DNA of 64,000 nt from Halichondria panicea (lineage: Eukaryota > Porifera > Demospongiae > Suberitida > Halichondriidae): the NCBI RefSeq assembly GCF_963675165.1, contig NC_087386.1:2296169-2360168 (forward strand), given 5' to 3'. Shown here piece after piece: positions 5,263 through 58,600 of the stretch; the first letter of the stretch is position 1, and each line of letters opens with the position of its first letter. Below the pieces are notes generated by a model. That model was not told the DNA's origin. It did no database searches and was given only the letters and a program-made list of their open reading frames with translations. The position numbers and the translations under genes were made by a program.

Positions 5263-7437
5263 ATGGTATTGTACGTGTGGGGAGTGGTGATTGTGTGCTC
5301 CCTACTACTCACTCATCACAATGGCGCACTATCAATGGGCCCCACTGAAAAGAAACACTACAAGTAAGTGTGTGTGTGTACACATTACCCTAGTCCTAGT
5401 AGTAGTCTAGAGGTTCCCATACTGGCCTTATTGTGTACCTACCTCAGCCTTTATTGTGTCGGAGGAATTTTGGTTTTATTTTAATATTTTGGTTTCCAGG
5501 GACAAGGTTCTGGAGATGTTCAATCATGCCTACCGTTCATACATGGTGAGCCTATCACATGACGTGTCTTATCTAATCACGTGACTCTGATTTACGCTGC
5601 TGACAGGACTTTGCATATCCTGCTGATGAGTTGATGCCACTGACGTGTAAGGGGCGTGTCCGGGGGGTGGAGCAAGGACGAGGGGACATTGACTTTACCC
5701 TGGGCAGGCTCTCCCTCACCCTCATAGACACACTGGACACTCTGGCTGTGAGTCAAGTATATACATATAGTGTGTGGGTGGTCAGGGCAACCTCATCCCC
5801 TGAGGCCCTATTGGAGGAGAAGCTATGTAACTTATTTAGGAGCCATTACCATGAATTAAGTAGCTACTGTATTTGTCTGGAGATGGTTTCCTGTATTGAA
5901 TAGTTAATATAGATGCTTCCACCAGAGGCTCCTCTCTTACCTTGACTTCCTTCCCCTATATCTGAATCAGTACAATACACTATATGAGAGGAAGCTGTAC
6001 TCTAACTGTACTGTACATGATAGTTTGTTACTATTAAAGGGGCAGGAGGAATCTCCCCCTCCACCAATATACATGTGTTTGTCCCCTCAGGTAATTGGTT
6101 CGGTTGATGAGTTTTCCTCGGCTGTACAAAAAGTCATGACAGACATTAGCTTCGACAGTGACTTGGTGGTATCAGTGTTTGAGACCAACATACGTGTGCT
6201 AGGTGGTTTACTGGGAGGTCACTTTGCTGCCCTGGCTCTCAAAGAGAAGGGCTACCATCAGTTGGCTTGGTATGATGGGGGGCTGCTCAGAATGGCAGTG
6301 GAAGTGGGGAACAGACTACTGCCTGCTTTCAACACCACCACAGGTCTCCCCTATCCAAAGGTGACTGCTCTGTACTCTGAAAAATAGCCAATAGAGAATA
6401 CAGTACAAAAGTTTACCAAATTTGAAACTGGTCTTAGTCCTAAGTGTACAGTATGTCATGTGGATAATACAACCTGTACATATGTAGAAAGTGCTTTATT
6501 ATAGGCAAATCTCTGTTGCAAGTGCACTGCAATCCACTGTACTGTGCAAAATTGCCAACAGAAAATACAGTCCATTCTGTACTAAAATAGAAACTGGTAG
6601 ATAATACAACCGTTACATGTGCTGTATTATATTGTGCCTCTCCTCAGATCAACCTTCGCCACGGTATGGGCTACCCTAACATGGAGAAGACAACGTGCAC
6701 GGCATGTGCTGGGTCCATGATCCTTGAGTTTGCTGCCCTCAGTAGACTAACAGGTGCAGTGATTGTGTGTGTGTGTGCGTGTGCGTGCGTGCGTGCGTTG
6801 TATGTGTGTGTACATTACCAAATGCATTTTGTAGCTCTAAGAGTTGTCTAGGCTTAGATTGTTAGTTACATTTGAGCCTAAGAAATGATAAATACATTGT
6901 GTAATAGTCAAGCTCTTTCTCTCCCATCAGGTGATCCTCAGTTTGAGGTGAAAGCCCACCAAGCAATGGAGGCAATCTGGCGTAGTAGACACCGAGGGCA
7001 CAATCTGGTTGGCTCAGTCATCAACGTACACAGTGCTGAGTGGACGAGAGTGGATAGCAGTGTGGGGGCGGGGATTGACTCATACTACGAGTACTGTCTC
7101 AAGTCTTACATCCTGTTTGGGGACAGGAAGTATCTGCAGAGGTTTGGGAAGGTGAGCGAGGGGTTATTGAAACACTTGGTGCTTACTGTTAGAGTTAAAA
7201 TTGTGAGGTAAAAGAGTTAACGGAAACTGTGTATACAGTACAATATGTACATGCAAGGTCAGCAACTTCATTTTCTTTCTTTACCCCCTCCCCTACAGCA
7301 TTATGATGCCATCAAGAGGTACATCACGAATGGGCCCATGCTAGTGGAGGTGAGCATGAATTCACCTCATCGAATGACTAGATCTTTCATGGACTCACTT
7401 CTGGCGTTCTGGCCTGGTCTGCAGGTACACACACACA

Positions 7438-13643: not shown

Positions 13644-16600
13644 ATGGCTGAATCTACAACACTGAATGCGCTATGCTGCTAGTTCCCCACAGTTGATGGA
13701 GGATGGACTCACTGCTGTGGATAGGGTATGATATTCACATGATAGATAGATACTCAATGATCAGTGCATTCTCCTAGTGCCTAGATGTACTTGTTGACCA
13801 CCCATAAACACACTTGGCATCATTCATTCATCACAGTATAGTGCCTACACTCTACCCTGTCAGTGTGAGGTGTTTTATCTCATGTTGTTTCTCTCCACAT
13901 GTACCACTCTCTCTGGATGGACAACAGGAATGGATTAAGGTACGTATTTAGTATGATCACATTCTACCAAGCTGACATGCTTGTGCTCTGAGCACTCGTT
14001 GTTAGGAGGTAGACAGTGTAAAGAAGAGCACATACGGATAACTGAATGTGATACTATTGCTTAATTGAGACAAGTAGATCTACTCGTATAGTAGTACCTG
14101 AAAGTATGCATGGTTAATCAAGTGTTTCAGTCTGCATGTTTGGCTGTCCACAATTGTTTCCCCTCCCCTGTGTCATGAAATCACCAGTGTACTGTATCAC
14201 TGCACTAATGTTCTCTTCCTTCCATTTCATGCATCTCCACCTCACCTTTGACTGACCCTCTGAAACAACAGCTTGTAAGTTGGTGTGTGTTGTCAGAGTA
14301 TTTAGTGTCTGTTGCATATTCTGTGATGTTTCTACTTCCCCATTATTACTCTTGTGTGTGTGCAGTGCCATAGTGTTATATAGGGAAATATTTAATATGA
14401 TCACATTCAACCTCGTAATCATTCATTTACTATCTTCCCACTGTTTGCCCTGTGGACTCTCCCTCTCTGGATCAACAGTATGTAAGTTGTGTTTGCACAT
14501 GCACACTCATTTTAATGGTTACTATAGGAACTCGTAAATTGTATTTTGTCTCTTTTCATAATTATTGCCAACTTGGTATTAGCCGAGGCCCACACAACTT
14601 ATTAGGTTGTAGTTTTAATATTCGTAGAATATACACCTAAGTTCATTAGTTGGTACGTACATTATCGTGTTTGTCTCTTCCCATGCACACACACTCATTC
14701 CTATGTTGGACCACACACTGATTTGGACTATTGTAGGAGGTGAGCTTCTTACGAGTACTCAATGTCCACACACTAAAATGGTTCAGCTGCAATGTGTACG
14801 GATGTACTGGTTACCTAGCATCATTAGCGTGTGTCCCTTGTCCTCTAGAGCTGACCCTCTCCCTCGTATAGGGTAGACCACGGCTTTAAACTTGTTCAAT
14901 TCGTAATCCCATTTTACGGGCACAAGTTCGAAATACCACCATTGTGTACATTGTGTACATGTAAATTTGTGTTTATGTAAATTCCCCAACCAATTAAGTG
15001 CCTACTGAACCTAAAACTTGTTGCCTATTTCTCAATATTTCCCCAACTTTTTTAGAGCTTTTCTATACCAGGTCTAGCCACTTGTTGCTGTGTGTAGTCA
15101 GTCCCATACACACCAGCGTTCAACTGATCTGATGTCTTGTATATGTGTTAAGATTAAATCTCACCCTCACATGTACCATTTGATGTGTCTCAGGATGCCA
15201 TTGAGGTATGTTGTGATTGTGTGTGTGTCTCATGAAGTGCAGGTGTTGTATTGTACGACAAACAAATCATATGTATCAAAGTTGTACATGTAAGATGCTT
15301 GTTGTACCGTTTACCGTCCCTTCCACTGACCCACCCACTGACCCTTCCATTATCTGCTATTGCTAGTACTGAGTACCTGTGTGTGTACTAGCCAGTGTGT
15401 GTACTACCAGTGTTCATATCAGTCTCTCCTCACATGTACCCTCTGTGGACTGTTACTCAACAACAGCGCGTGAGTTTATTGCATGTACATATAATGGCGT
15501 ACTAGGCTGACTTGTATACATGTACTACTGCATGAAGGCAGAAAGAATAACTTGCGTGACTATATTTAGGATTAGTACGTACTGAAAGTTTCATGCTGTA
15601 CAGACGTGTACTTGCAATAATTGATGTATACATGTGTGAATGCATTCGTGTATTTGAAAATGTTCATTTCTCTACATGTCCGTGTCCTACTGCTTGTTAA
15701 TGTGACTACTGCTAATGATTACTGGAACAACAGTGGGTAAGTTACAGTATGCAGACATGTATGAATGCACTCACTGCTCCTACCATCATCCCCCTCTCTC
15801 TGTTTCCATGTGTGTCTTACGCTGGTGTCTCATTGGACTAAACAGAAGGTGAGCGGGACACTGCACTGACTTGTGACTGTACTTGTGTCAGTAATGTTTG
15901 AGTTGCATGAGTACATGTGTATTGGCATTCATAGTGTACAGGTTTGTGATTATATTCTTTTCTCTCTCCCTACATTTCCATGGTTACTGAATATCTGGAA
16001 CGATAGAAAGTGAGTCAAACAATGTTGGCAAAAATATACCGTACACCTCATGATATGTGCATTCAGTTTGTAATAGTCTCATATCCTTCCTTACCTGACT
16101 CTAGTAGCTATATAATACTGGTTGCTCCTATACACAACTCATAATGTGTGACCACAAACACACAGTCTAACTTCTCTTGTCTTGTTCACCTTGTCCAGGA
16201 TAAGGCTAGGTATGAGAGGGAACTGAAGCATCATGAGACGGTGAGTGTTGACAGTTGCACTTACTACTCTCGTGGTAAGAGTGGTACACGTAGTCTAGCA
16301 GAACGACTATGTGTGTACATGTACTGTCCATTGTATGATGAATGTTTGCTTTTTGTCTACCTTTGTGTATGCTTTATATGTCCACTTTTACTGTTTGACT
16401 GTGTGAGGTTATACCGTATAGCGGGTAAATATAATAATTTTTATTATTATGATATTCTCGCCAAGGTTGGTGGTTGCTGATTTTGATAATTTGTACATTT
16501 GTATCAGCTGCATGTTCTATTTAGTGGAATGCTCATTCAGTCGTATATAAAGTTTATAATGATATTTTTACTCCCCCAGAGAAGAGCTGCCCTCCAACAG

Positions 16601-19600
16601 AGACTGTCTGGTGACATCACTGACCAGGACCGGAGACAACTGCAGGGAGAGCTGGAGGAGGTGGAGAGGGGGATCAAGAAGTGTGTCTCAGAGATACAAG
16701 GATGTGAGGGGAGGATACCTATCCATGAGAATGCTATTGCTGAGACACGAGGACGAGGAGAGGAGAGGCAGAGAAAGGAAGGTGAGGGGAGCAAGGAACT
16801 TTATAGTACAGTGAGTGTTGATGCTCATAGTTGCAATCACTCGTACCTGCGCAACTTACATGTAGTGTGTTATTAGTAGACTGTACCTACAGCTGTTGTG
16901 AGGTCCTCATACTTTATATAATCGTGTTATTGCAAAAGCGCTGGCTCCACCCACAACCTTTTCGTTCGCCTATCACATGTGTTGTGTTGCTAGGCAACTG
17001 CCCCTGATTGTGCACACTACAGTGTACTAGAGCATTGTTCCTGTTACTACTCTACACACTGTGGTGGTATGGATATGGTTTATTGGACTTTATTAATACC
17101 AACTTTCAATGATTTGGGTTCGTGACGTTGTACTGTGTTACTTAATTATGACATCATCATGTTAATTCAAGCATAGCACATTCCTGTAGTGATCAGCCAC
17201 ATCATTATTACCCAGTACATGTATTCCCTGTCATTGGTGGGTCACCCACTTAGCAAGCTTTAAAGGTTTACGATTTAAAGGTGGTTATGTTCAGCTGCTT
17301 CATGTCCTTCATTTCCACTGGCACTTCATTGGCTTCTTACATATACGCACAGCTGCTGTGTCCAGTTAGATCTATTTTAAAGCAGTTACCGTATATACCG
17401 CAAAATTTTCGAGGGGCTATATTTTCGCTGATTTCATGGGTTAGCAATCCACGAAAATTGTACCAATTATCTGCTATAACATGCAAAGATTAAAGCGTGG
17501 CTTCTGGTAAGCGGTCAACCCACAAACAGTGCAACGAAATGCTTTAGAGGTCATTCCACGAAATATAAGTGCCTCGAAAATTTCGCACTATAAGGTATTA
17601 TGTACATGTATATATCATACGTATGTAATCATGTTCTTATCAACTATTTGCTCCACCCACCACCTTTTTAAGCTTGCGTTGCTAGGCAACTGACTGTATT
17701 GTACAGTTTAGGCAGACTAGCAATCATTTTATGAGCCCGAGGGCGAGTTGCATAAAACATGATGCTATTGTTATGTGTTTTATACCTCACCAAATTATGC
17801 TTTAAGGCGACGTGATCGGACTGTATGACATTTATACATACTTGTTGCCTTTATATTGTTTACATGTTTTCCAGACCTCAATGTAATGTTCATTCCATTG
17901 TTCATTCCCCCACCCACTCACAACCACCATCCTTTTAATTATGTGTTTTGCTTCATATCCATTGGGTTGTGGGGCGTACCCTCTACTGTGCTTACTACAT
18001 GTGTACTTAATAGTGACATCCATGAATGCAAGCATAGCACATTCCTGCATGTAATGATCGGTTTAATCACATGCATCATAATTATGGTGACATCATAATA
18101 ATAGTCCATCTTGTCACCCAGCTCTGAAGTATTGCATAGTTAACATTCCTAACACCACATACACACGTCTTGTTTAGAATCGAAGCGGTTGTTTGATGAG
18201 GGGATGAAGCACGGACACGTCTTGGTCAACATTGTCAACATGCTCGTGTTTGGACCGGCGGGAACAGGGAAGACCAACCTCAAGCACCTGCTAACTGACA
18301 AGCCCCCTCCACTACAGCGTGACAGCACTCCTTGTATGGAAAAGCCAGTACGCATTCGACCCGTGTCCAACACGAAATTCAAGTCAACTGGAAGAGGCTG
18401 GGAAGAGATGTCTCAGCCAAAGCTGCGCAAGCTACTTGCTCAAATCATCGCTAAGTTACCAAAAGAAAGTGCCGATCCATCCACCGCATCAAGGGTTGCC
18501 GAGAGCTTGAAGAAGATGACCACAACCGAGTTAATTTCGGGTCCCGATTCTGATTCAGATGATTCATATTTTAGTTGCAATGAGTACCTTTCTGATTCCC
18601 AATCCAGCAACGATTCTGATGGACTTTTCGACTCCGATGAACTTTCTGGCTCTGCAAGAATGTTGGACGAAGCCATCGATGAAGTGATAGCGAGTGTAGT
18701 GAGTGGTGTGGCAGAAGAGCTGAAGCCAGCCACACAGGGAACTGACCAACTGTCGAGCAGTGACCAGCAAGAAGGAGAACTGTTCGATTCCAACTGGGTG
18801 TATGTTACCGACTGCGGCGGCCAGCCGCAATTCCACGACATCAGCCCTCTCTTCATCAAGCACATTTCGGTGGCGTTGATAGTCCTGCGTTTGATTGACG
18901 AACTCTCCAGTTTCCCTTCTGACGAGTACTACAAGGATGGGCAGCTTGTTGGTAGTCCTTGTGCATCTCACATGACCCTTGGGGAGACACTTCAGAGTCT
19001 CATTCGATCCATTGAGTCCCATACCTCACAAGACAAGAAGCCGAAGATGATCTTTGTGGGCACATTCTTTGATCAGCTGAAAAGCTCGGATACACTTATC
19101 GAGAGGAATCAAGAGATTCTCGACATGCTGCCACCCGATATCAAGAAGCTATTGGTGTACGAAAATCTTGGATTGAACAATCTGATTTTTGGTCTCAACA
19201 CAATCAGCCGAGAAGAAGATTCACTGGCCACTGCCAATAGGATTAGAATTGCTATTGAGCGCTCTATTCCGCTACAAGTCAAAATGCCCATCTGGTGGTC
19301 CTTCTTGGATTCACTTCTCCAGAGTTTGTCTGCCAGTCTCGAGCGAGGTGTACTAGGCATTGAAGAATGTCTCCAATTAGCCACTCGATTTGGTTATTTG
19401 CTCCAAGATCTTGAAGCTGCTCTGGTCTTCTTTGACAACGTGTGTATAGCGCACTACTATCCCTCCATTCTCCCCAACACAGTGTTTGTGGATGCCCAGA
19501 TTCCACTAGACAAGATCACCGAGCTCTCACAGCACGCCATTTTTCTGAGGAATGCACACTCTACTATTAGCCCAGGAGGGACAGGCGCCGAATGGAAGAG

Positions 19601-20894
19601 ATTTCGAGACGAGGGCATAATCACTTTAAAGTTTCTACGATTCTTTAAGAAGCATTACGTTGAAGGCATCTTTTCTCCAGAAGATATGCTGTTGATCATG
19701 AAATATCTTCTCGTGATTGCTCCCATTCCTCTAGTGGAAGCCACTATCCACCAAGCCGAGTTCTTCATGCCATCTCTACTCACATCGATCCCACCTGCTG
19801 AGCTAGACAAAATCCGTTCCTCCTTCACAATATCACCCTTCGCTATCTACTTTCGTAGTGGGTGTATTCGCTCTGGGGTATTTTGCTGTCTAGTTGTGGA
19901 CGTGATCAAGAGGCTGGGCTGGAAAGTGTTGCTTCCTTCAGGAGAAGCAAGCATTTTAGCTAAAAATTGCATTCAGCTTGAAATCCCCAATCTCCCGTGC
20001 ACCGTGGCTCTGATCGACTCCTTCTCGTATCTTGAAGTGTATATCGATGTGCTTTTTGCTCTTCGCAAACAAGTATGCCCTACAATTCGAAACGAAATTT
20101 TGATCAGCATTAAATCGTCGTGTGAAATGTTGCATTACAACAACGACATACCCAAGACAGCCATCTTTTGCCCATGCAGCAAGAAAAGCACTGGAAGCAT
20201 CCGCAAATTGCACCTTGCTGATGTGAGCGAACGAAATGGCTGTAAGTTTTGGAAGTGCTCCCTTCAGACACGTGTGTGGGGAGAGCTCAGTGATGAAGAT
20301 AGAATCTGGCTGGACGATAGCGAAGGTTCTGGTGAGTACAGTGATTTTTAATATTAAAATTTATATTTTGTTTTCCCCTCAATTAGATGTATCATCCTCT
20401 GTTGCGAGTGATATGTGTACAAAAAAGACACTGAGTAACCAGCAGCAACAATCTGGTAAGCACATGCATGGCAAGTATTAGAGTGTCGTATAGTTTCATT
20501 TTAGATATTATCTGATATTGAATTTCATGTTTTTTCTTTAGGTAAATTGCAATCATCCTCTGTAATCGAAGATGTGTGCAGGAAGACTGGAGTGACTGAT
20601 CAACAGCTCGATCAAGAAATCCCTGAGAGTGAAATCTACTGTGTAGCTAAACACATTGAGATGACACCCGGCTTGCTTGAAAGACTCAAACTCAATACTG
20701 CTGAAAAAAGCGATGCTACTCAAAAGAGAAACAATGAAGGCAATCAAGCTGGAGTGGCTCATGCGTTGAGTGTGTGGCGAAGTGTGAATCCTTACAGAGC
20801 TACCTTCAGGGCCTTGGTGGAAATTGCCATAGGACTGAGAAGAGGAGACACTGCTACAGACATTTGTAGATTCATTGTAAAGAATACGAGTTAA
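13644..20894 (+). CDS. Microexon-coiled coil-Roc-COR-Death gene B
   Basis: The start exon is 13,644-13,725. A 7-bp insertion relative to copies C and D stops the first frame after MAESTTLNALCC, but creates an in-frame ATG at 13,666 (MRYAASSPQL). Then come microexons at 13,928-13,939, 14,272-14,274, 14,479-14,481, 14,737-14,739, 15,194-15,205, 15,467-15,469, 15,734-15,736, 15,846-15,848, 16,007-16,009 and 16,199-16,240. The coiled-coil exon is 16,580-16,781, the GTPase exon 18,178-20,331, the linker 20,387-20,455 and the last exon 20,542-20,894. From ATG 13,666 this is 975 codons including stop, fully in frame. The coiled-coil exon ends in phase 1 and the GTPase exon starts with the two missing bases, which ties the 5' exons to the GTPase. 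P-loop GPAGTGKT and DCGGQPQF are kept. Only one Death domain remains, fused in one exon to the linker; the ALTIDDLQ domain is lost. Confidence 0.75.
13928..16240 (+). other. Microexon array of gene B (12, 3, 3, 3, 12, 3, 3, 3, 3, 42 nt)
   Basis: Ten phase-0 exons between introns of about 110-450 bp. Each has a pyrimidine-rich upstream tract, a CAG or TAG acceptor (often AACAG) and a GTAAGT/GTGAGT-type donor. Exon sequences in order: GAATGGATTAAG, CTT, TAT, GAG, GATGCCATTGAG, CGC, TGG, AAG, AAA, then a 42-nt exon beginning GATAAGGCTAGG. Translation of the first nine is EWIK-L-Y-E-DAIE-R-W-K-K. With the 42-nt exon (DKARYERELKHHET) this forms a continuous charged amphipathic helix. The introns hold no other clear coding signal. 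Confidence 0.75.
16811..17237. other. Intronic region at the unit 1/unit 2 boundary
   Basis: Start of the about 1.4-kb intron between the coiled-coil and GTPase exons of gene B. No coding signal. A second potential donor (ACA|gtgagtg at 16,810/16,811) gives a longer, phase-0 form of the coiled-coil exon. The unit boundary falls inside this intron. Confidence 0.55.
17391..17600. mobile_element. MITE-like inverted repeat in gene B intron
   Basis: The left part reads accgtatataccgcaaaatt then ttcgaggggc. The right part reads cctcgaaaatttcgcactat then aaggt. These are imperfect inverted ends about 200 bp apart. The same element is in unit 3 (34,385-34,595) and is absent from units 1 and 4, where the foldback element occupies this region. 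Confidence 0.6.
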
Positions 20895-21331: not shown

Positions 21332-22842
21332 ATGGTATTGTACGTGTGGGGAGTGGTGATTGTGTGCTCCCTACTACTCACTCATCACAATGGCGCACTA
21401 TCAATGGGCCCCACTGAAAAAAAACACTACAAGTAAGTGTGTGTGTGTACACATTACCCTAGTCCTAGTAGTAGTCTAGAGGTTCCCATACTGGCCTTAT
21501 TGTGTACCTACCTCAGCCTTTATTGTGTGGGAGGAATTTTGGTTTGTATGATTTGATTTTAATATTTTGGTTTCCAGGGACAAGGTTCTGGAGATGTTCA
21601 ATCATGCCTACCGTTCATACATGGTGAGCCTATCACGTGACGTGTCTATCTAATCACATGACTCTGATTTACGCTGCTGACAGGACTTTGCATATCCTGC
21701 TGATGAGTTGATGCCACTGACGTGTAAGGGGCGTGTCTGGGGGTGGAGCAAGGACGAGGGGACATTGACTTTACCCTGGGCAGGTTCTCCCTCACTCTCA
21801 TAGACACACTGGACACTCTGGCTGTGAGTCAAGTATATATATATAGTGTGTGTGTGGTCAGGGCAACCACATCCCCTGAGGCCCTATTGGAGGAGAAGCT
21901 ATGTAACTTATTTAGAAGCCATTACCATGAATTAAGTAGCTACTGTGTTTGTTTGGAGATGGTTTCCTGTATTGAATAGTTAATATAGATGCTTCCACCA
22001 GAGGCTCCTCTCTTACCTTGACTTCCTTCCCCTATATCTGAATCAGTACAATACACTATATGAGAGGAAGCTGTACTCTAACTGTACTGTACATGGTAGC
22101 CTGTTACTATTAAAGGGGCAGGAGCAATCTCCCCCTCCACCAATGTACATGTGTTTGTCCCCTCAGGTAATTGGTTCGGTTGATGAGTTTTCCTCGGCTG
22201 TACAAAAAGTCATGACAGACATTAGCTTCGACAGTGACTTGGTGGTATCAGTGTTTGAGACCAACATACGTGTGCTAGGTGGTTTACTGGGAGGTCACTT
22301 TGCTGCCCTGGCTCTCAAAGAGAAGGGCTACCATCAGCTGGCTTGGTATGATGGGGGGCTGCTCAGAATGGCAGTGGAAGTGGGGAACAGACTACTGCCT
22401 GCTTTCAACACCACCACAGGTCTCCCCTATCCAAAGGTGACTGCTCTGTACTCTGAAAAATAGCCAACAGAAAATGCAGTTCAAAATGTTATACCAAATT
22501 TGAAACTGGTCTTAGTCCTAAGTGTACAGTATGTCATGTGGATAATACAACCTGTACATATGTAGAAAGTGCTTTATTATAGATAGGCAAATCTCTGTTG
22601 CAAGTGCACTGCAATCCACTGTACTGTGCAAAATTGCCAACAGAAAATACAGTCCATTCTGTACTAAAATTGAAACTTGTAGATAATACAACCGTTACAT
22701 GTGCTGTATTATATTGTGCCTCTCCTCAGATCAACCTTCGCCACGGTATGGGCTACCCTAACATGGAGAAGACAACGTGCACGGCATGTGCTGGGTCCAT
22801 GATCCTTGAGTTTGCTGCCCTCAGTAGACTAACAGGTGCAGT

Positions 22843-29905: not shown

Positions 29906-32900
29906 ATGGCTGAATCTACAACACTCAATGCTGCTAGTTCCCCACAGTTGATGGAGGGTGGGCTCACTCGTGGGGAAAAGGTATGATATTCACATGATAG
30001 ATAGATACTCAATGATCAGTGCATTCCTTTAGTGCCTAGATGTACTTGTTGACCACCCATAAACACACTTGTCATCATTCATTCATCACAGTATAGTGCC
30101 TACACTCTACCCTGTAGGTATGAGGTGTTTTATCTCATGTTGTTATTCTCTCCCCACATGTACCACTCTCTCTGGATGGACAACAGACGTGGATTAAGGT
30201 ACGTTGTGTGCAATCACATTCTACCAAGCTGACATGCTTGTGCTCTGAGCACTTGTTGTTAGGAGGTAGACAGTGTAAAGAAGAACACATACGGATAACT
30301 GAATGTGATACTATTCCTTAATTGAGACAAGTAGATCTACTCGTAGTATAGCCTCCTTCACCGGCCTTCATAGGAAAGAAGGCCTGCTATCGACTGCTTG
30401 CGCATGCGCCAAATTATTCGATATTTTTCCTCGTAAAATTTCCTATAATACTGGATTCATCAGAGAAAATATCCTAAAAGTCACACACAGAGCTATATAG
30501 CTAGCTAGCTAGAGACAGAGCTGTGTATGTTTGTTGTACAGCTATTTTCTTTTGATAGAATCAGTAGCAGTAGTATAGTAGACTTTCACCAAAGTTAGTG
30601 TTAAATGGGCGTGGCCTGTCCATATGATGTCACAGTTTTACTGAGCATATACGATGTTATCCAAAGCCCCCAGATACCGGGGGGATATTAGTGCATGCGC
30701 AAGCAGTCGATACCAGGCCCACTTCCCTAAGTGAAGTGGGAAGTGCGGCCTGGGATCGAGGCTACTCGTAGTAGTACCTGAAAGTATGCATGGTTAATCA
30801 AGTGTTTCAGTCTGCATGTTTGGCTGTCCACAATTGTTTCCCCTCCCCTGTGTTATGCAATCACCACTGTACTGTATCACTGCACTAATGTTCTCTTCTT
30901 TCCATTTCATGTATCTCCACCTCACCTTTGACTGACCCTCTGAAACAACAGGCTGTAAGTTGGTGTGTGTTGTCAGAGTATTTAGTGTCTGTTGCATATT
31001 CTGTGATGTTTCTACTTCCCCATTATTACTCTTGTGTGTGTGTGCAGTGCCATAGTGTTATGTAGGGAAATATTTAGTATGATCACATTCAACCTCGTAA
31101 TCATTCATTTACTATCTTCCCACGTGTTTGCCCTGTGGACTCTCCCTCTCTGGATCAACAGGCTGTAAGTTGTGTTTGCACATGCACACTCATTTTAATG
31201 GTTACTATAGGAACTCGTAAATTGTCTTTTGTCTCTTTTCATATTGCCAACTTGGTATTAGCCGAGGCCCACACAACTTATTAGGTTGTAGTTTTAATAT
31301 TCGTAGAATATACACCTAAGTTCATTAGTTGGTACGTACATTATCGTGTTTGTCTCTTCCCATACACACACTCATTCCTATGTTGGACCACACACTGATT
31401 TGGACTACTGTAGGAGGTGAGCTTCTTACGAGTACTCAATGTCCACACACTAAAATGGTTCAGCTGCAATGTGTATGGATGTACTGGTTACCTAGCATCA
31501 TTAGCGTGTGTCCCTTGTCCTCTAGAGCTGACCCTCTCCCTCGTATAGGGTAGACCACGGCTTTAAACTTGTTCAATTCGTAATCCCATTTTACGGCCAC
31601 AATTTTGAAATACCACCATTGTGTACATTGTGTACATGTAAATTTGTGTTTATGTAAATTCCCCAACCAATTAAGTGCCTACTGAACCTAAAACTTGTTG
31701 CCTATTTCTCAATGTTTCCCCAACTTTTTTATTTCTTAGCTTTTCTATACCAGGTCTAGCCACTTGTTGCTATGTGTAGTCAGTCCCATACACACCAGCG
31801 TTCAACTGATCTGATGTCTTGTATGTGTGTTAAGATTAAATCTCTCCCTCACATGTACCATTTGATGTGTCTCAGGATTGGATTAGGGTATGTTGTGATT
31901 GTGTGTGTGTCTCGTGGAGTGCATGTGTTGTATTGTACGACAAACAAAATCATATGTATCAAAGTTGTGCATGTAAAATGCTTGTTGTACCGTTTACCGT
32001 CCCTTCCACTGACCCACCCACTCTGACCCTTCCATATTCTGCTATTGCTAGTACTGAGTACCTGTGTGTGTACTAGCCAGTGTGTGTACTACCAGTGTTC
32101 ATATCCCTCTCTCCTCACATGTACCCTCTGTGGACTGTTACTCAACAACAGGACGTGAGTTTATTGCATGTACATATAATGGCGTACTAGGCTGACTTGT
32201 ATACATGTACTACTGCATGAAGGCAGAAAGAATAACTTGCGTGACTTTATTTAGGATTAGTACGTACTGAAAGTTTCATGCTGTACAGACGTTAGACTGG
32301 CGGCGATAGAGCGACTGGCAAACTGCCTATCAGTCACTTGTCTCAGCGGAAGTGTAATAGATCGTATGACACTACTAAACATGAATATCGTTATAGATAA
32401 TGTGGTTAAATGTTGCTATGAGATTCAGCTACTATGGAATGCACTGAATCCCCTGAAGTGTAAGTGCGGTTACAATTACAGGGCTAATATGACGTTGAGC
32501 AATCTGATAGGCTGCAATGCTCGTTGCAGCTGAGACGAGTGACTGATAGGCAGTTTGCCAGTCCCTCGCGCTACGCACGCGAGGGGCTGTCGCCGCCAGT
32601 CTATACAGACGTGTACTTGCAATAATTGATGTATACATGTGTGAATGCATTCGTGTATTTGAACATGTTCATTTCTCTACATGTCCGTGTCCTACTGCTT
32701 GTTAATGTGACTACTGCTAATGATTACTGGAACAACAGGTGGTAAGTTACAGTATATACAGACATGTATGAATGCACTCACTGCTCCTACCATCATCCCC
32801 CTCTCTCTGTTTCCATGTGTGTCTGGCGCTGGTGTCTCATTGGACTAAACAGAAGGTGAGCGGGACACTGCACTGACTTGTGACTGTACTTGTCTCAGTA

Positions 32901-35900
32901 ATGTTTGAGTTGCATGAGTACATGTGTATTGGCATTCATAGTGTACAGGTTTGTGATTATATTCTTTTCTCTCTCCCTACATTTCCATGGTTACTGAATA
33001 TCTGGAACGATAGAAAGTGAGTCAAACAATGTTGGCAAACATACCGTACACCTCATATGCATTCAGTTTGTAATAGTCTCATATCCTTACCTGACCCTAG
33101 TAGCTATACTGGTTGCTCCTATAGACAACTCATAATGTGTGACCACAAACACACAGTCTAACCCACTCTTGTCTTGTTCACCTTGTCCAGGAGAAGGCTT
33201 GGTATGAGAGTAAACTGAAGCATCATGAGACGGTGAGTGTTGACAGTTGCACTTACTACTCTCGTGGTAAGAGTGGTACACGTAGTCTAGCAGAACGACA
33301 ATATGTGTACATGTACTGTCCATTGTATGATGAATGGTTGCTTTTTGTCTACCTTTTTTTAGGTATGATTTGTAAGTCCACTTTTACTGTTTGTCTGTGT
33401 GAGGTTATACCGTATAGCGGGTAAATATATAATTATGCTCGCCAAGTTTATTTAGGTTGGTGGTTGCTGATTTTTATATTTTGATAATTTGTACATTTGT
33501 GTCAGCTGCATGTTCTATTTGGTGGAATTTTTCTTCAGTCGTATATAAATTCTTTACTCCCCCAGAGAAGAGCTGCCCTCCAACAGAGACTGTCTGGTGA
33601 CATCACTGACCAAGACCGGAGACAACTGCTCGGAGAGCTGGAGGAGGTGGAGGGGGAGATCAAGAAGTGTGTCTCAGGGATACAACGTTGTGAGGGGAAT
33701 ATACAATACTGGGAGAATATGATTGCTGAGATACGAGGAGAAGTAGAGGAGAGGCAGAGAAAGGAAGGTGAGGGGAGCAAGGAACTTTATAGTACAGTGA
33801 GTGTTGATGCTCATAGTTGCAATCACTCGTACCTGTAGCAACTTACATGTAGTGTGTTATTAGTAGACTGTACCTACAGCTGTTGTGAGGTCCTCATACT
33901 TTATATAATCGTGTATTGCAAAAGCGTTGGCTCCACCCACAACCTTTTCATTTGCCTATCACATGTGTTGTGTTGCTAGGCAACTGCCCCTGATTGTGCA
34001 CACTACAGTGTACTAGAGCATTGTTCCTGTTACTGCTCTACACACTGTGGTGGTATAGATATGGTTTATTGGACAATCTAGACTTTATTAATACCAAGTT
34101 TCAATGATTTGGGTTTGTGACGTTGTACTGTGTTACTTAATTATGACATCATCATGTTAATTCAAGCATAGCACACTCCTGTAGTGATCAGCCACATCAT
34201 TATTACCCAGTACATGTATTCCCTGTCATTGGTGGGTCACCCACTTAGCAAGCTTTAAAGGTTTACGATTTAAAGGTGGTTTATGTTCAGCTGCTTCATG
34301 TCCTTCATTTCCACTGGCACTTCATTGGCTTCTTACGTATACGCACAGCTGCTGTGTCCAGTTAGATCCATTTTAAAGCAGTTACCGTATATACCGCGAA
34401 ATTTTCGAGGGGCTATATTTTCGCTGATTTCATGGGTTAGCAATCCACGAAAATTGTACCAATTATCTGCTATAACATGCAAAGATTAAAGCGTGTCTTC
34501 TGGTAAGCGGTCAACCCACAAACAGTGCAACGAAATGCTTTAGAGGTCATTCCACGAAATATAAGTGCCTCGAAAATTTCTCACTATATGGTATTATGTA
34601 CATGTATATACCATACGTATGTAATCATGTTCTTATCAACTATTTGCTCCACCCACCACCTTTTTAAGCTTGCGTTGCTAGGCAACTGACTGTATTGTAT
34701 AGTTTAGGCGGACTAGCAATCATTTTATGAGCCCGAGGGCGAGTTGCATAAAACATGATGCTATTGTTATGTGTTTTATACCTCACCAAATTATGCTTTA
34801 AGGTGACGTGATCAGACTGTATGACATTTATACATACTTGTTGCCTTTATATTGTTTATATGTTTTCCAGACTCCAATGTAATTTTCATTCATTCCCCCA
34901 CCCACTCACAACCACCATCCTTTTAATTATGTGTTTTGCTTCATATCCATTGGGTTGTGGGGCGTACCCTCTACTGTGCTTACTACATGTGTACTTAATA
35001 GTGACATCCATGAATGCAAGCACAGCACATTCCTGCATGTAATGATCGGTTTAATCACATGCATCATAATTATGGTGACATCATAATAATAGTCCATCTT
35101 GTCACCCAGCTCTGAAGTATTGCATAGTTAACATTCCTAACACCTCATACACACGTCTTGTTTAGAATCGAAGCGGTTATTTGAAGAGGCGATGAAGCAC
35201 GGATATGTCTTGGTCAACATTGTCAACATGCTCATGTTTGGACCGGCGGGAACAGGGAAGACCAACCTCAAGCACCTGCTAACCGACAAGCCCCCTCCGC
35301 TACAGCGTGACAGCACTCCTTGTATGGAAAAGCCAGTACGCATTCGACCCGTGTCCAACACGAAATTCAAGTCAACTGGAAGAGGCTGGGAAGAGATGTC
35401 TCAGCCAAAGCTGCGCAAGCTACTTGCTGAAATCATCGCTAAGTTACCAAAAGAAAGCGCCGATCCATCCACCGTATCAAGGGTTGCCGAGAGCTTGAAG
35501 AAGATGACCACAACCGAGCTAATTTCTGATTCCGATGAGCAAATTTCTGGTTCCAGTTCGAGCCCATTGAGGAGGAACGATTCCGATACGCTTTCTGGCT
35601 CTGCAAGAAAGTTGAAGAAAGCCGTTGATAAAGTGATAGCGAGTGTAGTGAGTGGTGTGGCAAAAGAGCTGAAGCCAGCCACACAGGGAACTGACCAACT
35701 GTCGAGCAGTGACCAGCAAGAAGGAGAACTGTTTGATTCCAACTGGGTGTACGTTACCGACTGTGGCGGCCAGCCGCAATTCCACGACATCAGCCCTCTC
35801 TTCATCAAGCACATTTCGGTGGCGTTGGTAGTCCTGCGTTTGATTGACGAACTCTCCAGTTTCCCTTCTGACGAGTACTACAAGGATGGGCAGCTTGTTG

Positions 35901-42200: not shown

Positions 42201-43300
42201 GGTAGTGAAGGGCAGGGGAGGTCTGACATGCATGCACGAATCACTACCATGTACTGAGTTTGTCACTATCCCCCATTTTTTCCTTGCAGTATGAGTTTGT
42301 GCTGGAGGAGAGAGGATGACATTGCCATCATCAACGCTGGTCTTAGAGTCGTCTTAGCACCACCAGCGGGTGATTCCGATTGGACGGTCCAAGACTGTTG
42401 CCTTAGTTACGGAGGGATGAGTTACATAACTACAGTGGCCAAGAAGACGCAGGCTTATCTCATTGGAAAGTGAGTACACACATACAACAGTACAGTAATG
42501 TGTTTTTAGTATAATATTGCGTTAAACTATTTCATTCATTAATCACCAGGCCATGGTGTGAGTCTACACTGGAGGGGGTGTGTCCACTACTCCTGGAGGA
42601 CCTGCCCCTCTCCCCTGATGTACCTGGGGGCATGCCGGACTATAGGCGCTCTCTTGTCACATCCTTCTTCTACAAGTTCTATCTCACCGTCCTCTCTCGT
42701 TTGAGGAGTGAGCCCCTGCCACAGAATCTCATTAGTGCCACAAGGTCAGTGGTCCATGGTGTGTATTGTTGCTAGGTTACCGTTAGCCTCATCATTACCA
42801 GGAATATTTATTACGGTTTTAATAGACGTGGTTGTTTCGGGGAAACCAATACGAACACACTGTTTCCACGTCTGTGTAGATCACCTAAGGCAATTTAGAG
42901 CTCTGTTTCTACCCTATTTCTACTCTCTGTGTATAGGCTGGTCCTTTCAACTGTGATATTACTCGTCCACCTGGTTGTACTATACCCCCCAGGTTCTTTG
43001 AGAGACCCCCAGTGCAGAGTAGTCAAGGGTTTCAGAGTGTGTCAGACAAGCAGCTGCCAGAGGATAGTGTGGGGCGACCATTGATGCATCTCTCCGCTCT
43101 ACAGCAGGCGTCCGGGGAGGCAAGGTGAGGGGGTGGGGCTGTGTAGTCCTATTGGTGTCATCAAAGATTGAGTAAAATCCATCAACTGTTTAAAGATGTA
43201 TCCCTCCCTGCATAGGTACATGGACGACATCCCCCCCACAAAGGGGGAGCTGTACGCTGGCCTCGTCCTCAGCACGCATCCTCACGCTAATTTCATTCAC
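39205..43300 (+). pseudogene. XDH: Xanthine dehydrogenase/aldehyde oxidase family, N-terminal half only
   Basis: Molybdo-flavoenzyme of purine oxidation. Exons: 39,205-39,262, 39,518-39,717, 39,892-40,018, 40,078-40,139, 40,216-40,501, 40,714-40,881, 41,045-41,121, 41,369-41,462, 41,711-41,817, 42,290-42,469, 42,550-42,744, 42,993-43,124, 43,216-43,300. The first 2Fe-2S motif is [17 protein letters not shown]. The second cluster shows CGFCTPGF and [13 protein letters not shown]-domain signatures follow (GIGGNICNASPISDLNP, FFTGYKKT, REDDIAIINAG). The last exon starts the molybdenum domain (YMDDIPPTKGELYAGLV) and is cut at about 43,298 by fusion to the EDEM3 upstream sequence. The catalytic C-terminal half is missing. 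The exon at 42,290 is out of frame with the previous one (short deletion after YEFV). No start exon is visible. It is a captured fragment, not a working gene. Confidence 0.88.
41818..42222. repeat. 25-bp minisatellite (about 16 copies) at a splice donor
   Basis: Tandem repeat of a 25-bp unit containing ggtcatggtagtgaagggca, with two main variants ending gggga or gggta. The first copy begins exactly at the 5' splice site of the exon ending at 41,817, so the donor gtaggtcatgg is itself part of the repeat and the gggta variant repeats it. One copy lost a single base near 41,990. Confidence 0.95.
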
Positions 43301-52639: not shown

Positions 52640-55600
52640 ATGGCTGAATCTACAACACTGAATGCTGCTAGTTCCCCACAGTTGATGGAGGATGGGCTCA
52701 CTGATGGGGATAGGGTATGATATTCACATGATAGATAGATACTCAATGATCAGTGCATTCTCCTAGTGCCTAGATGTACTTGTTGACCACCCATAAACAC
52801 ACTTGGCATCATTCATTCATCACAGTATAGTGCCTATACTCTACCCTGTCAGTGTGAGGTGTTTTATCTCATGTTGTTGTTCTCTCCACATGTACCACTC
52901 TCTCTGGATGGACAACAGTGGCTGATTGAGGTACGTTGTGTGCAATCACATTCTACCAAGCTGACATGCTTGTGCTCTGAGCACTTGTTGTTAGGAGGTA
53001 GACAGTGTAAAGAAGAGCACATACGTATAACTGAATGTGATACTATTCCTTAATTGAGACAAGTAGATCTACTCGTAGTATAGCCTCCTTCACCGGCCTT
53101 CATAGAAAAGAAGGCCTGCTATCGACTGCTTGCGCATGCACCAAATTATTGGATATTTTTCCCCGTAAAATTTCCTATAATACTGGATTCATCAGAGAAA
53201 ATATCCTAAAAGTCATACACAGAGCTATATAGCTAGCTAGCTAGAGACAGAGCTATGTAGGTTTGTTGTACAGCTATTTTCTTTTGATACAATTAGTAGC
53301 AGTAATATAGTAGACTTTCACCAAATATAGTGTTAAATGGGCGTGGCCTGTCCATATAGGCTCTTGTCAGCCTTCACTCCGTTCAGACGATCGTCATCCA
53401 CACTGTTGCAGGCTGTGAGTCTTTTGTTAACATAGCAGGCTAAGGGTAGCTATTAGAGAATGCTATCAGATGGGCTAGCAACTCAATCGAACTTTCTATC
53501 TACTTCCTTCAATCCACTTTCGTTCCTTGTGATGTCACAGTTTTACTGAGCATATACGATGTTATCCAAAGCCCCCAGATACCGGGGGAATATTAGCGCA
53601 TGCGCAAGCAGTCGATACCAGGCCCACTTCCCTAAGTGAAGTGGGAAGTGCGGCCTGGGATCGAGGCTACTCGTAGTAGTACCTGAAAGTATGCATGGTT
53701 AATCAAGTGTTTCAGTCTGCATGTTTGGCTGTCCACATTGTTTCCTCTCTCCTGTGTCATGCAATCACCAGTGTACTGTATCACTGCACTAATGTTCTCT
53801 TCTTTCCATTTCATGCATCTCCACCTCACCTTTGACTGACCCTCTGAAACAACAGCTTGTAAGTTGGTGTGTGTTGTCAGAGTATTTAGTGTCTGTTGCA
53901 TATTCTGTGATGTTTCTACTTCCCCATTATTACTCTTGTGTGTGTGCAGTGCCATAATGTTATATAGGGAAATATTTAGTATGATCACATTCAACCTCGT
54001 AATCATTCATTTACTATCTTCCCACTGTTTGCCCTGTGGACTCTCCCTCTCTGGATCAACAGTATGTAAGTTGTGTTTCCACGTGCACACTCATTTTAAT
54101 GGTTACTAGGAACTCGTAAATTATCTTTGTCTCTTTCCATATTGCCAACTTTGTATTAACCGAGGCCCACACAACTTATTAGGTTGTAGTTTTAATATTC
54201 GTAGAATATACACCTAAGTTCATTAGTTGGTACGTACATTATCGTGTTTGCCTCTTCCCATGCACACACTCATTCCTATGTTGGACCACACACTGATTTG
54301 GACTACTGTAGGAGGTGAGCTTCTTACGAGTACTCAATGTCCACACACTAAAATGGTTCAGCTGCAATGTGTACGGATGTAGAACTCGTAAATTATCTTT
54401 GTCTCTTTCTATATTGCCAACTTGGTATTAACCGAGGCCCACACAACTTATTAGGTTGTAGTTTTAATATTCGTAGAATATACACCTAAGTTCATTAGTT
54501 GGTACGTACATTATCGTGTTTGTCTCTTCCCATGCACACACTCATTCCTATGTTGGACCACACACTGATTTGGACTACTGTAGGAGGTGAGCTTCTTACG
54601 AGTACTCAATGTCCACACACTAAAATGGTTCAGCCGGATGTACTGGTTACCTAGCATCATTAGCGTGTGTCCCTTGTCCTCTAGAGCTGACCCTCTCCCT
54701 CGTATAGGGTAGACCATGGCTTTAAACTTGTTCAATTCGTAATCTCATTTTACGGGCACAAGTTCAAATACCACCATTGTGTACATTGTGTACATGTAAA
54801 TTTGTGTTTATGTAAATTCCCCAACCAATTAAGTGCCTACTGAACCTAAAACTTGTTGCCTATTTCTCAATATTTCCCCAACTTTTTTATTTCTTAGCTT
54901 TTCTATGCCAGGTCTAGCCACTTGTTGCTGTGTGTAGTCAGTCCCATACACACCAGCGTTCAACTGATCTGATGTCTTGTATATGTGTTAAGATTAAATC
55001 TCTCCCTCACATGTACCATTTGATGTGTCTCAGAATTGGTTTAAGGTATGTTGTGATTGTGTGTGTGTCTCATGAAGTGCAGGTGTTGTATTGTACGACA
55101 AACAAAATCATACGTATCAAAGTTGTACATGTAAGATGCTTGTTGTACTGTTTACCGTCCCTTCCACTGACCCACCCACTAACCCTTCCATTATCTGCTA
55201 TTGCTACATGTAGTACTGAGTACCTGTGTGTGTACTAGCCAGTGTGTGTAATACCAGTGTTCATATCCCTCTCTCCTCACATGTGCCCTCTGTGGACTGT
55301 TACTCAACAACAGAGCGTGAGTTTATTGCATGTACATATAATGGCATACTAGGCTGACTTGTATACATGTACTACTGCATGAAGGCAGAAAGAATAACTT
55401 GCGTGACTTTATTTAGGATTAGTACGTACTGAAAGTTTCATGCTGCACAGACGTTAGACTGGCGGCGATAGAGCGACTGGCAAACTGCCTGTCAGTCACT
55501 TGTCTCAGCGGAAGTGTAATAGATCGTATGACACTACTAAACATGAATATCGTTATAGATAATGTGGTTAAATTTTGCTACGAGATTCAGCTACTATGGA

Positions 55601-58600
55601 ATGCACTGAATCCCCTGAAGTGTAAGTGCGGTTACAATTACAGGGCTAATATTACGTTGAGCAATCTGATAGGCTGCAATGCTCGTTGCAGCTGAGACGA
55701 GTGACTGATAGGCAGTTTGCCAGTCCCTCGCGCTACGCACGCGAGGGGCTGTCGCCGCCAGTCTATACAGACGTGTACTTGCAATAATTGATGTATACAT
55801 GTGTGAATGCATTCGTGTATTTGAACATGTTCATTTCTCTACATGTCCGTGTCCTACTGCTTGTTAATGTGACTACTGCTAATGATTACTGGAACAACAG
55901 TATGTAAGTTACAGTATGCAGACATGTATGAATGCACTCACTGCTCCTACCATCATCCCCCTCTCTCTGTTTCCATGTGTGTCTTACGCTGGTGTCTCAT
56001 TGGACTAAACAGAAGGTGAGCGGGACACTGCACTGACTTGTGACTGTACTTGTGTCAGTAATGTTTGAGTTGCATGAGTACATGTGTATTGGCATTCATA
56101 GTGTACAGGTTTGTGATTATATTCCTTTCTCTCTCCCTACATTTCCATGGTTACTGAATATCTGGAACGATAGAGAGTGAGTTAAACAATGTTGGCAAAC
56201 ATACCGTACACCTCATGTGCATTCAGTTTGTAATAGTCTCATATCCTTACCTGACTCTAGTAGCTATACTGGTTGCTCCTATAGACAACTCATAATGTGT
56301 GACCACAAACACACAGTCTAACCCACTCTTGTCTTGTTAACCTTGTCCAGGATAAGGCTGAGGAGGAGAGTAAACTGAAGCGTCATGAGACGGTGAGTGT
56401 TGACAGTTGCACTTACTACTCTCGTGGTAAGAGTGGTACACGTAGTCTAGCAGAACGACAATGTGTGTACATGTACTGTCCATTGTATGATGAATGGTTG
56501 CTTTTTGTCTACCTTTTTTTAGGTATGATTTGTAAGTCCACTTTTACTGTTTGTCTGTGTGAGGTTATACCGTATAGCGGGTAAATATGATAATATGATA
56601 TGCTCGCCAAATTTATTTAGGTTGGTGGTTGCTGATTTTTATATTTTGATAATTTGTACATTTGTATCAGCTGCATGTTCTATTTGGTGGAATTTTTCTT
56701 CAGTCGTATATAAATTCTTTACTCCCCCAGAGAAGAGCTGCCCTCCAACAGAGACTGTCTGGTGACATCACTGACCAGGACCGGAGACAACTGCAGGGAG
56801 AGCTGGAGGAGGTGGAGGGGGAGATCAAGAAGTGTGTCTCAGGCATACAACGATGTGAGGGGAACATACATATGTGTGAGAATGAGATTGCTAGGATACG
56901 AGGAGAAGGAGAGGAGAGGCGGAGAAAGGAAGGTGAGGGGAGCAAGGAACTTTATAGTACAGTGAGTGTTGATGCTCATAGTTGCAATCACTCGTACCTG
57001 TAGCAACTTACATGTAGTGTGTTATTAGTAGACTGTACCTACAGCTGTTGTGAGGTCCTCATACTTTATATAATCATGTATTGCAAAAGCGTTGGCTCCA
57101 CCCACAACCTTTTCGTTCGCCTATCACATTTGTTGTGTTGCTAGGCAACTGCCCCTGATTGTGCACACTACAGTGTACTAGAGCATTGTTCCTGTTACTA
57201 CTCTACACACTGTGGTGGCATGGATATGGTTTATTGGACAATCTAGGCTTTATTAATACCAACTTTCAATGATTTAACCCTAACCCTAACCCTATATAGG
57301 TAGACTCCTAGGCCTGGTATTGATTGTATCTTGGCATGGTTGGAATTCGCTCAAACGAGCAAATTCCTAAGCGATTAAATACTATTAGCAAGCTAGCTAG
57401 CTAGCTACCTGTGACTCGACTATGGATACTTCAGTTCTGGATTTTGATGGACAAGGGGAGCGCTGGTCCTACCAAGCTTGTAGTCCATCAAAAATGATAA
57501 CAACTGGTAGCAAAGAGATATGCCATACCCTGTTGGGAACCACACAAACACCCTCAGACAGGAGCTTGAGGGCCTATTCCTTCAAGAGAGTAAGGCTTCT
57601 TGTTTCGTACAGGGCATTTATAAGCTATTGCTCCATCGAAATCCTTAATCGCTTAGGAATTCGCTCGTTTGAGCGAATTCCAACCACGCCCAAATACAAT
57701 CAATACCATGCCTAGGCCTATATAGCGTTCAATTGGAGACGGATCGGCCTAGGAGTCTACCTAGCGTTCAATTAAATTGGAGACAGATCGGCCTGGGAAC
57801 GAGGCTAGTAGTCCAGTTGCCTTTCCACTGACACTTTATTGGCTAGGCAACTGACTTTTTTAACATGTACGTAGTACAGTTTAGGCATACTAAACTAAGC
57901 ATCATTCCTTTTGCTACTCTACATGGACACTGTTTATTGAACATTGTAGTAATATACTGTAGGACTGAACATATATAGCTGATGCCCATCGTGTTCTAAT
58001 CGCGTTATCGGTATTATCCTTGCAAACATGCATTTTATGACATACAGGCAGAAGCCCGAGTGACGATCGAGTGCGATGATTATATATTATTATGTGTTTT
58101 ATATCACGATGACCCCTTACCAATTTATGCCTTGAGGCTATGCAATGGTGTAATTAAATAACACAGAAGAGCTTTCTTGTTGCTTTGGCAATTCTATATA
58201 TTCACATGTTTTCCCAGCCCAATGTACATTGTTCGTATATCCCTCTACTGTACATGTGGTGGTTGTTAACATTACATACACCACATATACACATTAGAAT
58301 CGAAGCTATCAGCAAAGCGGTTGTTTGATGAGGCGATGAAGCACGGACACGTCTCGGTCAACATTGTCAACATGCTTGTGTTTGGACCTGCGGGAACAGG
58401 GAAGACCAACCTCAAGCACCTGCTAACTGACAAGCCCCCTCCACTACAGCGAGACAGCACTCCTTGTATGGAAAAGCCAGTACGCATTCGACCCGTGTCC
58501 AACACGAAATTCAAGACAACTGGAAGAGGCTGGGAAGAGATATCTCAGCCAAAGATGCTCAATCTACTAGCTGAAATCATTGCCAAGTTACCAAAAGAAA

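Follow-up and report, generated by a model that had tools for sequence, protein, structure and literature searches.

Micro-exon genes (MEGs) are families with very small symmetric exons. The schistosome MEGs treated in one account encode secreted or membrane-anchored parasite proteins, and the helices of MEG-26 have distinct conserved and variable faces (PMC5825161). The bicycle genes of aphids, whose products are putative gall effectors, contain many small phase-2 exons under strong positive selection, with more than 100 microexons in a single gene, megacycle (PMC9168663). The LRR-ROCO genes of brown algae encode proposed immune receptors in which each leucine-rich repeat (LRR) is a 72-bp phase-2 exon, subject to diversifying selection and exon shuffling (PMC11378527). 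Microexons of 3 nt are known from Ncam, Drosophila TnT and human RPS24, the last of which has microexons of 3, 18 and 22 bp between two constitutive exons (PMC8042270, PMC11162997); a rice gene has adjacent microexons of 5 and 12 nt, and in plants there are 1-nt exons that annotation has missed (PMC8831610). We describe here a putative chain of one-codon exons in a 64,000-nt stretch of the genome of the sponge Halichondria panicea (contig NC_087386.1, positions 2,296,169 to 2,360,168), referred to below as the window. It holds three tandem copies (B, C and D) and the end of a fourth (A) of one eukaryotic gene, in which seven exons of 3 nt and two of 12 nt are predicted to be joined into part of an N-terminal helix, ahead of a GTPase-like region and a Death-like end.

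The sponge gene resembles the schistosome MEGs in its many tiny symmetric exons, nine of them of 3 or 12 nt and in phase 0, but differs in that its predicted product is a GTPase-like protein with a Death-like end, from a sponge, and in that its microexons are mostly of one codon and confined to one helix. The internal exons of bicycle genes are almost all in phase 2, whereas the sponge microexons and the 42-nt exon that follows them are in phase 0. The brown algal LRR-ROCO genes are comparable in that small exon units are under diversifying selection in a GTPase gene, of ROCO type there and putatively Roc-COR-like here; the unit here is a single helix codon, unlike the algal repeat, and the variable exons are 3, 12 and 42 nt long and in phase 0. 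In the accounts cited above, the 3-nt microexons described previously are single or few, form no series of seven and show no hypervariability. No chain of one-codon exons was found among the papers listed from the open-licence literature searched, most subscription journals lying outside that coverage. If the reading given below is correct, exon size has been pushed to an extreme in an early-branching animal, and microexons are tied to immune-type diversification as well as to neurons and parasite effectors. The locus would also offer a natural test of how the spliceosome handles a run of 3-nt exons, and of introns as recombination spacers.

Layout of the array

An earlier note on this DNA, made from its letters, had reported nine microexons in copy B; these were re-found between 13928 and 16009 and, together with the 42-nt exon, are all in phase 0 in the gene model (Table 1). 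Its seven 3-nt exons, designated L, Y, E, R, W, K1 and K2, are present as described, but they do not make an unbroken series, since the second 12-nt exon interrupts them. The donors GTAAGT and GTGAGT that it gave likewise apply in part: the 12-nt exons have GTACGT and GTATGT, and E and K1 have GTGAGC. The array recurs in C and in D, where a tandem duplication (253 nt aligned, offset 272) has doubled exon E, and the copy C model is, as claimed, an exact multiple of three, its translation running unbroken through 3279 nt to the stop. The recurrence in three paralogues, which the note made its main support, is thus real, but its evidential weight is small: B, C and D are 90-96% identical, introns included, the introns of their arrays are about 97% alike, and because the copies are so similar their agreement is weak evidence.

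Table 1. Positions in the window of the predicted exons of copy B and of the corresponding regions of copies C and D
Feature	Position	Strand	Remarks
Start exon, copy B (MEDGLTAVDR; donor GTATGA)	13696..13725	+	Present in 22 of 23 loci
12-nt microexon EWIK, copy B	13928..13939	+	Codons 1-2 hypervariable, Ile invariant
3-nt exon L, copy B	14272..14274	+	Hypervariable; 42 genome matches, all 3 nt
3-nt exon Y, copy B	14479..14481	+	Hypervariable; 38 genome matches, all 3 nt
3-nt exon E (GAG), copy B	14737..14739	+	Near-invariant; 34 genome matches, all 3 nt (31 GAG, 3 AAG)
12-nt microexon DAIE, copy B	15194..15205	+	Codons 1-2 hypervariable, Ile nearly invariant
3-nt exon R, copy B	15467..15469	+	Hypervariable; 39 genome matches, all 3 nt
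3-nt exon W, copy B	15734..15736	+	Hypervariable; 37 genome matches, query length fixed
3-nt exon K1 (AAG), copy B	15846..15848	+	Invariant; AAG in 38 of 38 genome matches
3-nt exon K2, copy B	16007..16009	+	K, E, R or N, one V in genome scan; 28 matches, all 3 nt
42-nt exon DKARYERELKHHET, remainder of helix 1, copy B	16199..16240	+	21 of 23 loci
Coiled-coil exon, copy B	16580..16781	+	Second helix, hypervariable face; 70 distinct exon sequences compared
Roc-COR-like exon, copy B (P-loop GPAGTGKT, DCGGQ motif)	18178..20331	+	Sequence motifs
Linker exon, copy B	20387..20455	+	Gene model
C-terminal Death-like exon including stop codon, copy B	20542..20894	+	Gene model; Death label via relative P0008
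Copy C: start exon, microexon array, 42-nt and coiled-coil exons	29951..33767	+	
Copy D: start exon, microexon array, 42-nt and coiled-coil exons	52685..56932	+	E exon doubled, 54312 and 54584

Splice-site statistics

Triplets framed by splice-site consensus, YAG-NNN-GTRAGY, occur 23 times on the plus strand of the three arrays (9,319 nt), versus not once in the other 54,681 nt of that strand; the whole minus strand of the window has two. Dinucleotide shuffles of the B array contain 0.09 such sites on average, versus 7 in the real sequence. Between YAG and GTRAGY borders the arrays contain no exon of 1, 2, 4-12, 15 or 18 nt (the 12-nt exons use other donors). One of the 23 sites, at 53412 in D, was considered as an extra microexon and set aside as probably a product of chance; there is an insertion near 53357-53524, and the segment with the site is absent from C, lying inside an inserted element that C and D have in common and B lacks.

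Variation among the copies falls on the triplets rather than around them. On the plus strand 25 AG-NNN-GT sites are conserved in B, C and D, and the triplet varies in 5 of the 7 sites that belong to the array versus none of the 18 others; on the minus strand it varies in none of 11. Of the aligned columns, 10 of 21 vary within 3-nt exons and 13 of 24 within 12-nt exons; for the near flanks the figure is 20 of 598, and for the other intron 81 of 2304 (microexon versus all intron, Fisher p = 5e-21). Chance or pure duplication was rejected as the origin of the sites on the strength of their enrichment together with this triplet-centred variation.

Most microexon acceptors in copy B carry an extended motif, for example CTGGA..CAACAG, that is absent at the 42-nt and coiled-coil exons; it may act as a microexon recognition signal. 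The stretches upstream of microexons are more alike overall than control sites (median score 17 versus 13, in pairs that are not independent). Duplication of a four-exon heptad module (12+3+3+3 nt, twice) was also considered and rejected: the layout fits, but the colinear pairing of flanks ranked only 7, 6 and 4 of 24 in B, C and D, respectively.

Variation across paralogous arrays

Genome scans covered the 131-Mb assembly, in which the window sits on a contig designated C10. A search with the Roc exon gave 76 matches (pieces of single loci counted), about 40 of them close, on C10 and a further contig, C13. The three window copies and 20 further loci form a set of 23, of which 22 have arrays. 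Three of the arrays are incomplete (L009, L020 and L026), and no array was found in the stretch examined of the remaining locus, L023. Tests on 19 arrays omit these four loci, and per-column counts omit gapped columns and exons of other length.

Across the 22 arrays, the 12 bases before and the 8 bases after each exon are nearly fixed. Between these flanks Y, R and W are similarly diverse to exon L, which encodes L, P, I, N, D, M, T, R, F, A or G. Exon E reads GAG in 20 of 21 copies, and all 20 copies of K1 read AAG. Diversity per site, measured in the 19 complete arrays, is 0.37-0.67 for five 3-nt exons, zero for E and K1, and 0.39 and 0.35 for the two 12-nt exons; nearby intron (within about 100 bases) has 0.041 and the splice flanks have 0.022. 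When the 1461 gap-free three-base windows are ranked by diversity, the top twelve are all inside microexons. Variability within the array is greatest in five of the seven one-codon exons and in the 12-nt exons.

The ratio of nonsynonymous to synonymous differences per site (pN/pS), pooled over the five variable 3-nt exons of the 19 arrays, is 2.8 (uncorrected, with few silent sites), and it is about 2.0, likewise uncorrected, for the 12-nt, 42-nt and coiled-coil exons; for the Roc exon of B and C it is 0.5. In the three window copies alone the 12-nt exons, which have few silent sites, show no excess (pN 0.39 versus pS 0.41).

Free-gap scans, in which the flanks were fixed and 0-12 nt were left free between them, were run for L, Y, R, E, K1 and K2 and retrieve exact-flank copies only. 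All 219 of 219 matches, divided among the exons as in Table 1, have exactly 3 nt between the flanks; in the W scan the three bases were set in the query. A backward-read control pattern gave no match in the genome scan. There is no stop codon among the 184 codons of L, Y, R, W and K2, versus 8.6 expected with equal letters and 2.7 with columns shuffled, the latter expectation being low owing to the skew at third positions. Of the 42 L exons 41 end in T, as do all 38 Y exons, while bases 1 and 2 use all four letters; this combination points to selection on the amino acid.

Several database open reading frames (ORFs) run antisense through exon L, and they differ chiefly over the exon in the 10 of 15 that can be aligned, which read QA, HA, QS, HP or HT there between nearly fixed flanks. 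The antisense ORF P0181 seems to be without exon L and its donor; copies may lose single microexons, as it hints. In the incomplete locus L026, the 12-nt exon near 3246 carries 24 extra nt, inserted in frame as a repeat of flank and exon, so that the CAG acceptor is present twice. Two acceptors are possible for this exon.

The predicted joined peptide

When joined, the 14 arrays of standard length read MEDGLTDxxRxxI[EK]xxExxI[EK]xxK[EKR]xKAxxESxLKxHET, with single-copy exceptions. The predicted N terminus (MEDGLT...) is charged and by inspection has no hydrophobic stretch. Entropy along residues 11-39 of the 19 arrays has one sharp period, of 100 degrees per residue, which none of 10,000 permutations reaches. 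The conserved stripe of the predicted helix, I13-E17-I20-K24-K27-E31-L34, alternates with variable residues, and because of the helical period the invariant one-codon exons E and K1 share a face with the invariant isoleucines. Among the 128 subsets of 3-nt exons that could be retained in the 19 arrays, the full set of seven ranks first with a score of 9.65, followed by 7.88 for the next subset, and 6.78 is obtained with none kept. A spacer test that used the longer exons only placed the true spacers, of 3 and 4 residues, first of 72.

For the coiled-coil exon, predicted to form a second helix, the comparison took in 71 rows, made up of 68 database ORFs and the three window copies. P0101 and B are the same copy, and the 70 distinct rows, some possibly alleles of one locus, gave an unchanged result. 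Positions 38, 41, 45, 48, 49 and 52 of the exon reach about 3.0-3.5 bits and lie on one helical face, with the same period as helix 1 (0 of 5000 permutations). The read-through intron downstream of the exon is nearly fixed, at 0.16 bits, and the exon mean is 0.78 bits.

As far as it can be read from sequence, the array is a coding chain under diversifying selection, because across tens of genomic copies the splice flanks stay fixed while most exon letters vary, chiefly at the first and second codon positions, the exons are of exactly 3 nt, and the joined residues follow a helical period. On these grounds the one-codon sites are almost certainly coding exons, and all of the microexons are probably included in the RNA under normal circumstances.

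Domain assignment

The GTPase-like part carries a P-loop and a DCGGQ motif. In copy C, Pfam gives Roc with E = 0.16, which falls below the cut-off. Two relatives are also below the Pfam cut-offs (P0096, COR-A 6e-7 and Roc 0.008; P0097, COR-A 0.003), and a family member, P0008, has a Death domain at 9e-6 that passes. A sequence search of PDB returned Rab-like 3 as its sole match (0.007), and the predicted structure of the Roc exon has a mean pLDDT of 78 and a pTM of 0.81. Judged by sequence, the family appears to be Roc-COR-Death-like; none of its relatives was found in viral contigs. A hypervariable helical hairpin, a GTPase-like middle and a Death-like end would together resemble an intracellular sensor, with a variable face at the front, a switch behind it and an assembly domain at the rear.

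Two broader claims of the earlier note can be set against these results. The variation of 22 arrays, the genome scans and the helical period support the first, a series of one-codon exons that runs into a coiled-coil exon. The second, a Roc/Death gene, rests on the P-loop and DCGGQ motifs, on the relatives and on Pfam scores that are weak.

Database gene models

Among the 100 matches listed, 31 database rows are named Halichondria panicea. Twelve of these start at a Met of the Roc exon and ten at a Met inside the coiled-coil exon; the start of five lies in or just before the 42-nt or coiled-coil exon. Of the other four, three (P0007, P0023 and P0032) differ in their 5' sequence and the last is only distantly related. 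If the one-codon exons are real, they would explain why 22 of the 31 rows begin at a Met within the Roc or coiled-coil exon. Databases would then lack the family's most variable part, and the public annotation seen here misses the array. Rows that lack the array fit exons too small for annotation, and also exons that are unused.

In three models (P0012, P0020 and P0021) the coiled-coil exon directly follows the end of the 42-nt exon. The RefSeq model P0002 has MYPLWTVTQQQ-I joined to DKAEYESELTSHET. Its genomic counterpart is L026, in which the first part corresponds to the sequence as far as 3-nt exon R (here ATT), inclusive, and the stretch has no W, K1 or K2; the model thus uses the donor of the 3-nt exon R and runs on at the 42-nt acceptor. 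Isoforms in RefSeq are numerous for each gene, numbered up to X17. In three isoforms of one gene (P0004, P0005 and P0006) the N terminus is common and the differences lie further downstream.

Linkage and possible exchange between copies

Intron linkage (r2) among 15 arrays on C10 is 0.64 for sites less than 50 bp apart and 0.51 for those 50-150 bp apart; at distances above 150 bp it is 0.07-0.11. Permutation of site order gives p = 0.002 for this decay. The full alignment of the same arrays gives 0.56 below 50 bp and 0.07-0.12 beyond 400 bp, with a background of 0.07, and its decay is uneven, with 0.15 at 50-150 bp followed by 0.28 at 150-400 bp. In all 19 copies r2 is 0.17 at 150-400 bp and 0.26 at 800-1500 bp, as expected if the C10 and C13 copies differ as groups. 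In seven copies compared for both, linkage in the Roc exon decays more slowly than in the array, which had only 17 usable sites there. None of 21 microexon pairs is associated at p < 0.05 (n = 19), by a test that is uninformative for most pairs involving 12-nt exons and weak for the rest. Among the C10 arrays linkage drops to near background within a few hundred bases, the length of the introns that separate the microexons (109-454 nt in copy B), and neighbouring codons may therefore reassort by gene conversion.

Where an array stands beside a Roc exon only 44% identical (L029), its splice flanks differ at 4 of 198 positions versus 110 of 1892 in the other intron (p = 0.02). The sequences suggest that the front module has been exchanged between copies, and that the array and the Roc exon have separate histories. 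On C13, copies near 5760744, 5584164, 5829314, 6023272 and 4968210 have several of these microexon flanks near Roc exons that are 43-45% identical to that of B; L029 is one of them. A relative on another contig, C6 (Roc about 45%; L030-L031, upstream of 5256970), has a coiled-coil exon with the same phase-0 border. No YAG-NNN-GTRAGY site was found in the 5.8 kb upstream of it, a stretch that was not searched for an unsplit helix exon.

Competing explanations

Taken as a whole, the observations are probably best explained by a helix spliced from coding one-codon exons in a GTPase/Death-like family. Residues 11-25 of an N-terminal helix would be assembled from nine phase-0 exons, two of 12 nt and seven of 3 nt; after them would come the 42-nt exon, the coiled-coil exon, a Roc-COR-like GTPase and a Death-like end. 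Helix 1 may pair with the second helix as an antiparallel hairpin, the surface of which would recognise a variable ligand or partner and so drive signalling through the GTPase and the Death domain. The repertoire would arise by diversifying selection together with gene conversion among the tandem copies. The balance tips somewhat towards the helix being the recognition surface of an immune-type receptor. It is a good deal more tentative that about 40 tandem copies, with cassettes of single residues, constitute a germline combinatorial repertoire formed by gene conversion and perhaps widened by optional inclusion. Several variable residues would each occupy a separate exon, with others sharing the 12-nt and 42-nt exons, and the near-identical introns between them would let the receptor surface reassort by one or two residues at a time. 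The 3-nt symmetry may keep frame and helix register during such reassortment of cassettes.

Several observations weigh against this explanation. The array is seen in none of the 31 H. panicea rows among the matches listed; of these, P0018 gives the coiled-coil exon another short start, and in P0023 a different front precedes the second half of that exon. The Pfam scores of copy C are weak, with no Death match at E <= 1. Third bases vary in R and W too. With three copies the subset test is not decisive, since the full set ranks 5 of 128 and the removal of all seven exons ranks 6, and the spacer test was won by a narrow margin (7.14 versus 7.03). The upstream flank of the coiled-coil exon is less fixed than the downstream one, at 0.56 bits over nine positions. 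Some copies are damaged or off register, with exon E doubled in D, deletions in L009 and L026, and insertions in L026 and L027; the start-exon ATG is lost in L015 and L019, which may be pseudogenes or have another start, and L020 is incomplete.

It is scarcely credible that the sites are chance splice-like triplets in an intron, copied by recent duplication. The window copies are indeed recent and 90-96% alike, but the enrichment of the sites, the variation centred on the triplets, the exact 3-nt length throughout the genome and the helical period are all contrary to this origin. Another proposal accepts the 3-nt exons and makes them optional cassettes, so that one gene would yield many helices differing in length and register. 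The exons are symmetric and in phase 0 and could be skipped without a frame shift, natural copies lose or double whole exons with the frame kept, and the RefSeq isoforms are numerous; yet the conserved stripe is most coherent with all seven exons included, the N termini of P0004, P0005 and P0006 are alike, and no RefSeq row shows the array. We consider optional use of this kind unlikely, and inclusion of the whole array is the reading preferred here.

Why an included helix should be divided so finely is a separate matter. Gene conversion through near-identical introns could swap single codons between tandem copies and so account for the splitting, which is possible, if on the doubtful side: the intron linkage among the 15 C10 arrays decays within a few hundred bases, none of the microexon pairs shows association at p < 0.05, and the same array occurs beside Roc exons about 44% identical. 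The decay is, however, non-monotonic in the full alignment and in all 19 copies, linkage in the Roc exon decays as well, if more slowly, the association test is uninformative for most pairs with 12-nt exons and weak for the others, and chance gain of introns could also cause the splitting. That the division into one-codon exons itself serves reassortment is held here just as tentatively. The hypervariable face might also set the pairing between family members, in partner choice or self-recognition, and not recognise a foreign ligand. Helix 1 and helix 2 each have an invariant stripe and a variable face, and Death-like ends usually work in assemblies. Such pairing seems rather unlikely as the role of the variable face.

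Neighbouring features

The tandem units also carry part of a gene resembling glycosyl hydrolase family 47 (GH47), at 5908-6384, 21984-22460 and 44077-44475. The second piece is matched by Pfam at 2.5e-19, and the other two are assigned by sequence likeness. Because these pieces recur in the tandem units, a larger block was duplicated. An ORF at 40144-40524 has a sub-threshold match to FAD_binding_5 (molybdopterin dehydrogenases), and a block of tandem repeats with highly similar units lies at 41816-42223.

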